This document shows, one piece after another, positions 19,044 through 31,827 of a DNA stretch of 34,786 bases. How positions within the stretch are numbered: the first letter of the stretch is position 1; the number at the start of each line of letters is the position of its first letter. This stretch comes from an uncultured Lachnospiraceae bacterium (lineage in GTDB: Bacteria; Bacillota; Clostridia; Lachnospirales; Lachnospiraceae), in NCBI GenBank assembly GCA_905234525.1, contig CAJOIL010000003.1, positions 1 through 34,786 on the forward strand, given 5' to 3'. Made by a program: the position numbers and the translations under genes. The notes beneath the pieces were generated by a model, which was not told the DNA's origin, searched no databases, and worked only from the letters and a program-made list of their open reading frames with translations.

Positions 19044-19181
19044 GTGAAAAGTACCATCCTTTCTACTACTATAACTACAATTACCATATCCTCTCCTATA
19101 TCAAGTGGAGAGAGTTCCTTCAAGCAAAGAAAGAACTAACCGTCACGGTAAAATGACGATCCGCTGAATATACGTCTAGCG

Positions 19182-19295
19182 TTAGCCCTGTCTTTGTTTG
19201 TGCTTCGGGTTCTCGCAAATAACCATTACGCGACCCTTTCTCTTGATTACCTTGCACTTTTCGCACATAGGTTTTACTGATGATCTTACTTTCAT
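19182..19295 (-). CDS. rpmJ: 50S ribosomal protein L36 (absent from the ORF track, 37 aa)
   Basis: Translation [37 protein letters not shown] with zinc-binding Cys/His pattern; GGGAGGA RBS. Confidence 0.97.
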
Positions 19296-19333
19296 GAGAG
19301 TCCTCCCTTCTCATATTAGTCATCTAATAATGT

Positions 19334-19402
19334 GTCTCGCCCATTATAATTCGCTTCGCGAAAGGGCTCGACGTGTAGCATTTTACTGCGTAAAAAAGCT
19401 AC
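19334..19402 (-). promoter_or_regulatory. Structured leader element A upstream of rpmJ (two GNA-triloop hairpins)
   Basis: Minus strand GTAGC-TT-TTTTAC-GCA-GTAAAA-T-GCTAC, then GTCGAGCCC[TTTCGC-GAA-GCGAA]TTATAATGGGCGAGAC. Confidence 0.6.
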
Positions 19403-19425
19403 AAGCGCACATAGTCGCAGATAAC

Positions 19426-19455
19426 AGTATATCAAAAACCCTTGACTAATGTCAA
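19426..19455 (-). promoter_or_regulatory. Predicted sigma-A promoter for rpmJ-rpsM-rpsK-rpsD-rpoA-rplQ
   Basis: Minus strand TTGACA (19455-19450), 18-bp spacer, TATACT (19431-19426); the -35 lies inside the terminator stem. Confidence 0.65.
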
Positions 19456-19464
19456 GGGTTTTTT
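19434..19464. terminator. Bidirectional Rho-independent terminator downstream of infA
   Basis: AACCCTTGAC-TAAT-GTCAAGGGTT with A-run on one side and T-run on the other. Confidence 0.85.
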
Positions 19465-19505: not shown

Positions 19506-19724
19506 TTATTTGTCACGCCAAATTATTCTTCCTTTATCAAGATCATAAGGACTCATCTCAACAGTAACCTTATCTCCCGGTAGAATTCTGATATAATTCA
19601 TACGAAGCTTACCACTGATATGTGCCAATATCTCGTGACCATTCTCTAACTCAACACGAAACATAGCATTGGGTAATTTCTCTAAAACCTTTCCTTCTAC
19701 TTCAATTACATCAGCTTTTGACAT
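19506..19724 (-). CDS. infA: Translation initiation factor IF-1
   Basis: [70 protein letters not shown]; start trimmed from the ORF track. Confidence 0.97.
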
Positions 19725-19737
19725 CACATTTCTCCTT

Positions 19738-20019
19738 CTAATTGTCCTGCGCCTTGCAGGCATCTAAATAACTGTTATATTCCTTAACCGCCTTAGCAAT
19801 CACATCATCATTAAGACTCTCCGTGTCCTCCAATATCCTTCGAACATTTGCAGGTAGCTTCTTAATCACTTGTACGTGCAATATGTTCTTACGCTTGGGC
19901 TTATCCACCGTCTTAGTTGTTCCGTTGGCAAGTGTCATATAACCATCGACCTCGCTCAGCACAACATATATATGATTTTTGTCGTGACCCGCTAAGGATT
20001 TTCCCAGGTAAATATTCAT
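19738..20019 (-). CDS. KOW-domain (L14e/L6e/L27e-like) RNA-binding protein
   Basis: [45 protein letters not shown]; typical position before infA in Clostridia. Confidence 0.8.
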
Positions 20020-20687: not shown

Positions 20688-21056
20688 CTATCCGTAAGCC
20701 ATTCACGGTACGAACCCCCCTTCCGTCTGACAAAAGACTCCAAGGGATTGTCCCGCTGAATAGCTTCGGTTCAGATAATTCCTATCTGTAATCCATTCAT
20801 ATGTACGAACCCCCCTTCCGTCTGACGAAAGACTCCAAGGGGTTGTCCCACTGAATAGCTTCGGTTCAGATAATTCCTATCTGTAATCCATTCATATGCA
20901 CGAACCCCCTTCCGTCTGACGAAAGACTCCAAGGGGTTGTCCCGCAAAATAGCTTCGATTCAGATAATTCCTATCTGTAATCCATTAATATGTACGAACC
21001 CCCCTTCCGTCTGACGAAAGACTTCATGGGGTTGTCCCGCAAAATAGCTTCGATTT
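20688..21056 (-). repeat. Four tandem copies of a ~94-bp hairpin-forming unit in the secY-adk gap
   Basis: Unit CTATCTGTAATCCATTCATATGTACGAACCCCCCTTCCGTCTGACGAAAGACTCCAAGGGGTTGTCCCGC..ATAGCTTCGRTTCAGATAATTC, starts at 20688, 20782, 20877, 20971. Confidence 0.95.
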
Positions 21057-31375: not shown

Positions 31376-31439
31376 TGTCTTTCCTCCTAATTAATCTACA
31401 GCGGAACGGAAGCAATCCGTTCATACTAGTTTACAAGGT

Positions 31440-31506
31440 GTCTCGCCCATTGTGTTCACCTGCGGTGAAGGGCTCGACATGCAGCACATCGACTTCGCCG
31501 ATACGC
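31440..31506 (-). promoter_or_regulatory. Structured leader element B upstream of rplC (two GNA-triloop hairpins)
   Basis: Minus strand GCGTATCGGC-GAA-GTCGATGTGC, then GTCGAGCCC[TTCACC-GCA-GGTGAA]CACAATGGGCGAGAC; matches element A. Confidence 0.6.
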
Positions 31507-31509
31507 AGC

Positions 31510-31827
31510 CTACTTCTCTTTCATCTTAATGCTGATATCAACACCGGCAGGCATCTCTAATGAAGAGAGTGCATCAACAGTCTTATCTGTTGGTGTAATG
31601 ATATCAATAAGTCTCTTATGAGTTCTCTGCTCGAACTGCTCTCTTGAATCCTTATACTTGTGAGTAGCTCTAAGAATTGTAACGACCTCCTTCTTAGTGG
31701 GAAGAGGTACGGGTCCGCTCACCTTAGATCCATTCTTCTTAACAGTCTCGATAATCTTCTTGGCTGATGAATCAACGAGTTCGTGATCATATGCCTTAAG
31801 TGTAATTCTCATAAATTGAGTTGCCAT
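31510..31827 (-). CDS. rpsJ: 30S ribosomal protein S10
   Basis: [71 protein letters not shown]. Confidence 0.97.

Follow-up and report, generated by a model that had tools for sequence, protein, structure and literature searches.

A putative promoter -35 hexamer inside a predicted terminator hairpin between infA and rpmJ: a probable bifunctional element in a genus of Lachnospiraceae

Layout of the infA-rpmJ junction

The window, by which we mean the whole stretch of 34,786 nucleotides analysed here (contig C3), belongs to an uncultured Lachnospiraceae genome of 1.85 Mb in 134 contigs. A neighbouring gene is also encoded by uncultured Lachnospiraceae MAGs, one of which is labelled Pseudobutyrivibrio sp. 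UBA3626, and the isolate names of these relatives read as rumen-derived. The window contains a ribosomal-protein cluster whose genes were named by Pfam (IF-1, L36, S13, alpha and S10); the infA start codon was set at MSKADV, which is conserved in eight genomes. Direct reading of the sequence places a 39-bp composite element at 19426-19464 on the minus strand, between infA and rpmJ. On this strand the gap contains GAAAAAACCCTTGAC-ATTA-GTCAAGGGTTTTTGATATACTG, with ATTA as the loop, and between infA and rpmJ the strand reads GTTGAAAAAACCCTTGACATTAGTCAAGGGTTTTTGATATACTGTTATCTGCG. The features of the region are the following:

19506..19724, minus strand: infA (IF-1), Pfam PF01176, E=3.9e-30; the last gene before the composite
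19434..19463, minus strand: predicted intrinsic-terminator hairpin with a 13-bp stem and an ATTA loop; compensatory changes in 8 genomes
19450..19455, minus strand: putative -35 hexamer TTGACA within the 5' arm; 11/12 in the promoter scan, TTGAC invariant in 8/8
19426..19434, minus strand: putative extended -10, TG-A-TATACT, directly after and overlapping the T-run; spacer of 18
19418..19420, minus strand: predicted start of the rpmJ-rpsM-rpsK-rpsD-rpoA-rplQ unit, from a spacing of 6-8 nt after the -10
19326..19408, minus strand: copy of a dispersed two-hairpin element in the rpmJ leader (R1 covariance model, 73.7 bits, E=2.5e-17)
19182..19295, minus strand: rpmJ (L36), Pfam PF00444, E=1.6e-21; the first gene of the downstream unit
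31432-31515, minus strand: second copy of the dispersed element, between rpsJ and rplC

A 93-aa protein without a Pfam match is encoded between adk and infA (19738-20019, minus strand), and its versions in the relatives are only 45-59% identical. Between secY and adk, still inside the ribosomal-protein cluster, a 95-bp unit is repeated 3.9 times in tandem (20688-21052; 93% matches). The 138-nt gap between rpmJ and rpsM (19044-19181, minus strand) has a predicted terminator-like hairpin at 19161-19138 and is a possible candidate for a ribosomal-protein leader.

Terminator and promoter signals

The hairpin has a stem of 13 pairs (19463-19451 with 19446-19434) and an MFE of -18.6 kcal/mol, with z = -6.1 and none of 200 shuffles as good; across all eight genomes of the genus z-scores range from -4.6 to -6.5. 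The lower stem consists of A5 paired with T5, and the T-run doubles as the U-tract. The arrangement typical of intrinsic terminators, a stable hairpin with a U-tract (here T5) directly after it, is present in 8/8 genomes. A standard terminator scan missed the hairpin, probably because the T-run was partly counted as stem. Since the opposite (plus) strand also forms a terminator-like hairpin with a T-run, the terminator may be bidirectional. Intrinsic terminators release the transcript 7-8 nt past the G-C part of the stem, which here would be at about 19432, and the RNA 3' end on the infA side is predicted at about 19434-19431. We also used a d'Aubenton-Carafa-type terminator score, with the A-U part of the stem left out; it gives -1.9 in two genomes (G007 and G001), and the remaining six score between +5 and +20. 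In the same two genomes the stem is weaker than in the rest, and termination there may therefore be partial. The hairpin was not assigned to a known RNA family: its score against the rimP leader (RF01770), 31.6 bits, lies below the gathering threshold of 47 and is explained by the shared terminator shape.

Five bases of the TTGACA hexamer (19455-19450) lie in the 5' arm and the sixth is the first base of the loop. The TATACT hexamer (19431-19426) follows after an 18-bp spacer composed of loop, 3' arm and U-tract, and TG at 19434-19433 makes it an extended -10. An earlier sequence-only reading of this DNA had placed TTGACA in the terminator stem and TATACT 18 bp farther on, and direct reading of the minus strand confirms this. 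Judged by sigma-70/sigma-A hexamers at a spacing of 16-18 bp, the site has 10 to 12 of 12 matches plus TG in the eight genomes. Transcription is predicted to start at about 19420-19418, approximately 13 bp past the predicted RNA 3' end; the positions proposed in that reading, 19434 for the 3' end and 19419 for the start, are close to the refined predictions. In a scan of 20 kb of the 34.8-kb window, the site is one of two with 11/12 matches. Dinucleotide-shuffled windows contain 1.4 sites of at least 11/12 each, and only 0.06 that also have TG. By itself, the promoter match is unremarkable. The combination of promoter, TG and coincident terminator, kept in 8/8 species, is on the comparative evidence not a product of chance.

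Conservation within the genus

The comparison set comprises eight genomes (species) of the genus, which are related and provide few independent stem changes. In all eight, the composite is found at the same place between infA and rpmJ. Anchored on the -10, the sequences share the invariant, gap-free pattern AAAAA...CTTGAC............TTTTTG.TATA.T. The spacer is 18 bp in 8/8 although the sequences of stem and loop vary. Even in the source genome, where the loop has 4 nt instead of 3 and the 3' arm is one base shorter, spacer length is still 18. Changes in the upper stem are compensated (ACCC/GGGT, GCCC/GGGC, GTC/GAC), and 92.9% of the cells in the stem alignment are paired. The covariation score is 0.179 versus 0.117 in shuffled alignments (5 of 500 reach 0.179) and at most 0.084 when the partner is slid. 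Pairwise identity within the composite averages 0.83, as against 0.65 at four-fold degenerate sites of infA and rpmJ in the same species. In the five pairs made by -35 bases, all departures (two or three events) are on the 3' side, which is suggestive of a promoter holding the 5' side. A dual-use element thus seems well supported by sequence evolution. The claim, made before any genomes were compared, that termination on the infA side and the start of the rpmJ transcript use the same bases likewise gains support: the two signals are co-conserved in the eight species, the stem changes are compensated, the spacer is fixed at 18 bp, and -35 and -10 are invariant.

A dispersed element in the rpmJ leader

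The two-hairpin element in the rpmJ leader is present there in this species only and is absent from that position in the other seven genus genomes. The element is about 85 nt long, and the covariance model finds approximately 149 copies in the eight genus genomes (4 to 42 each); in 149 other family genomes it gave weak matches only, in two of them. Two-sided changes occur in 21 of 24 pairs, with 102 two-sided cells versus 32.6 in shuffles (0/500). Its core reads CACGUCGAGCCC-hairpin-AWAAUGGGCGAGAC, and the closing helix contains a tandem G-A motif. About 10 of the 33 copies examined begin directly after stop codons, others directly after tRNA 3' ends, and either orientation relative to the neighbouring genes is found. 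Examples of copies of the element are L079 279-366, L106 1501-1588 and L089 1501-1588. The last of these lies, in genome G003, inside the RNase P RNA (RF00010, 264 bits; L089 1270-1710, minus strand), on the sense strand and at a site that we read as the P12 loop; another copy sits at the 3' end of the same gene. In G006, three copies in alternating orientation stand directly upstream of a 16S rRNA gene (L105 1501-1867). The element matches no family in Rfam. As for a RAYT/Y1 transposase as its source, Y1_Tnp is found in seven of the eight genomes, and G005 has element copies and no Y1 match. It resembles a structured repeat, mobile or dispersed, of an undescribed kind.

Origin and rarity of the overlap

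In the same family but outside the genus, 15/15 loci have a promoter-like site ahead of rpmJ, its -10 often ending about 34 nt before the start codon. In none of these 15 loci does the -35 lie inside a terminator stem. One family member (L020) has a terminator and a promoter between infA and rpmJ as separate elements, and a more distant named relative (L043) has a promoter-like site only. Six loci that belong to the same order but to other families have 25-81 nt between infA and rpmJ, and a convincing promoter is absent. In the relative G008, the rpmJ promoter region (L017 1713-2017) has a long inverted repeat, ATTTCCAAAAGCGTC...GGACGCTTTTGGAAAT, which spans the -10 and is a different palindrome at the same junction. 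This distribution indicates that the composite is an innovation of the genus. Most likely, an internal promoter of long standing turned palindromic, in its spacer and upstream flank, in the genus ancestor.

We surveyed 435 kb (the 34.8-kb window and 400 kb of G006) for terminators with an overlapping promoter. There are three such cases among 153 predicted terminators, versus 0-3 in shifted controls (mean 0.7). The three are the infA-rpmJ locus, the orthologous locus of G006 and a third, weak site. Since overlaps are hardly commoner than in the controls, the one at infA-rpmJ could have been born by chance and then kept. The pattern TTGACN{2,6}GTCAAN{6,12}TATAMT occurs in the eight genus genomes at infA-rpmJ in five, plus at four sites without a T5 run, and in 299 family genomes it has sites in 100. 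Inspection of the matches listed for these 299 genomes showed no CAAGG-T5 arrangement outside infA-rpmJ. Genome-wide use of terminator/promoter overlap was considered and rejected: the overlap is not enriched, and among the matches listed for the family sample there is no other composite with a U-tract. As far as these surveys indicate, the overlap is confined to a single locus, where it has been kept for as long as the genus has existed.

Discussion

Based on these observations, we propose, with a probability of about 0.72, that the infA-rpmJ composite is a bifunctional terminator-promoter. According to this proposal, an older, family-wide sigma-A promoter before rpmJ would have gained, in its spacer, bases complementary to its own -35 side. 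The strand carrying -35, spacer and -10 would thereby also encode a terminator hairpin and a U-tract. RNA polymerase coming from infA would form the hairpin and release its RNA at about 19434-19431, and holoenzyme would start the rpmJ-to-rplQ transcript at about 19419, some 13 bp onward. Termination and initiation would share DNA and could not be simultaneous. At the level of sequence, both signals exist, overlap and are co-conserved with a fixed promoter spacing. Each of them presumably works in the cell, and infA termination and rpmJ initiation would hence affect each other.

Matches of 11/12 turn up about 1.4 times per shuffled window, and only one of the two signals might work; the locus would then be, for example, a terminator that happens to contain a promoter-like string, or else a promoter whose palindrome is incidental. 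However, the extended -10 TG, the 18-bp spacing and the -10 are invariant though a terminator needs none of them, and stem pairing is kept though a promoter has no need for pairing; we consider a single working signal unlikely. The palindrome might also be an operator for a DNA-binding regulator over the -35 instead of an RNA terminator, and palindromes of the form TTGAC...GTCAA that cover a -35 region, lack a U-tract and resemble operators do recur in the family. Yet in an operator both the sequence and the distance between the half-sites would be retained. Here the stem outside TTGAC varies with compensation between species, the loop varies in length, and it is the A-tract and the T-tract that are invariant; conservation of both half-sites in sequence and spacing is not seen. 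Given the compensated variation of the outer stem and the variable loop length, we judge the operator very unlikely.

If the composite is a bifunctional terminator-promoter, a polymerase that terminates and one that initiates require the same stretch of DNA, and therefore two opposite consequences can be envisaged: occlusion of the promoter or immediate reuse of the polymerase. In other words, "handover" and "interference" are opposite predictions. Both are sub-forms of the bifunctional terminator-promoter, and our confidence in them overlaps with that in the proposal as a whole and is not additive to it. With occlusion, upstream transcription pausing and terminating on the promoter would lower initiation, resulting in a negative balance between the two halves of the cluster. 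General footprint sizes suggest that a terminating polymerase would cover the spacer, the -10 and the start site. However, a terminating polymerase may dwell there too briefly to have an effect, and we hold occlusion only tentatively, with the odds somewhat against it. With recycling, the polymerase would stay on the DNA after release of the infA RNA and reinitiate at the promoter that it already covers, and output of the rpmJ operon would rise with termination at infA. Recycling with reinitiation at nearby promoters has been shown in vitro for E. coli RNAP, and the terminator-promoter distance is expected to influence it (PMC6978380, PMC11347151); at this locus the distance is about 13 bp, near the minimum, and is kept in eight species. 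On the other hand, in vivo reinitiation by recycling has not yet been demonstrated according to PMC11347151, restarts were mainly antisense in a parallel study (PMC6978322), and a terminating polymerase on the promoter may block it. Recycling at infA-rpmJ seems to us improbable. A stronger version would be a selected relay, in which the polymerase ending the S10-spc-infA transcript passes straight to the rpmJ-rplQ promoter beneath it; production of ribosomal proteins and of RNA polymerase alpha would then be coupled although no single mRNA spans the genes. If true, the relay would mean that post-termination recycling is put to use in vivo and that this use has been conserved in evolution; we regard it as a distinctly long shot.

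If the bifunctional terminator-promoter is confirmed, it would mean that the terminator of one operon can be written into the promoter spacer of the next without adding any length, and that such shared signals sit inside one of the most conserved gene clusters of bacteria. With the predicted 3' end and the next start about 13 bp apart, the locus would be a natural construct on which occlusion and RNA polymerase recycling could be told apart cleanly: its terminator-promoter distance is close to the minimum, and the two predict opposite outcomes.

Comparison with known systems

A search of open-licence papers for an infA/rpmJ overlap or for other cases of a -35 in a terminator found nothing direct, which is weak evidence of absence. 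An ordinary terminator followed by a promoter has the same two signals in the same order as infA-rpmJ; the difference is that ordinarily they occupy separate bases, whereas here the bases are shared. Proximity as such is common: most terminators of E. coli and B. subtilis are close to a promoter, and most E. coli termination sites lie within 1000 bp of the nearest start site (PMC11347151). The systems in which RNA polymerase recycling has been studied (PMC6978380, PMC6978322, PMC11347151) resemble infA-rpmJ in having a termination site and a promoter within diffusion distance. At infA-rpmJ, where the distance is about 13 bp, recycling is only a proposed consequence. At the frd-ampC junction of E. 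coli, a likely parallel, the regulatory region of the downstream operon also ends the preceding operon: the frd terminator serves as the ampC attenuator, and the last frd gene contains the ampC promoter (PMC6045580, which cites Grundstrom and Jaurin 1982). The frd-ampC promoter is thus upstream of the terminator, i.e. of the ampC attenuator. At infA-rpmJ, in contrast, the -35 is in the terminator stem and the -10 comes after the U-tract. The frd-ampC -35 is presumably outside the stem; the reversed order and a -35 within the stem therefore set infA-rpmJ apart as a probable variant within the same general kind.
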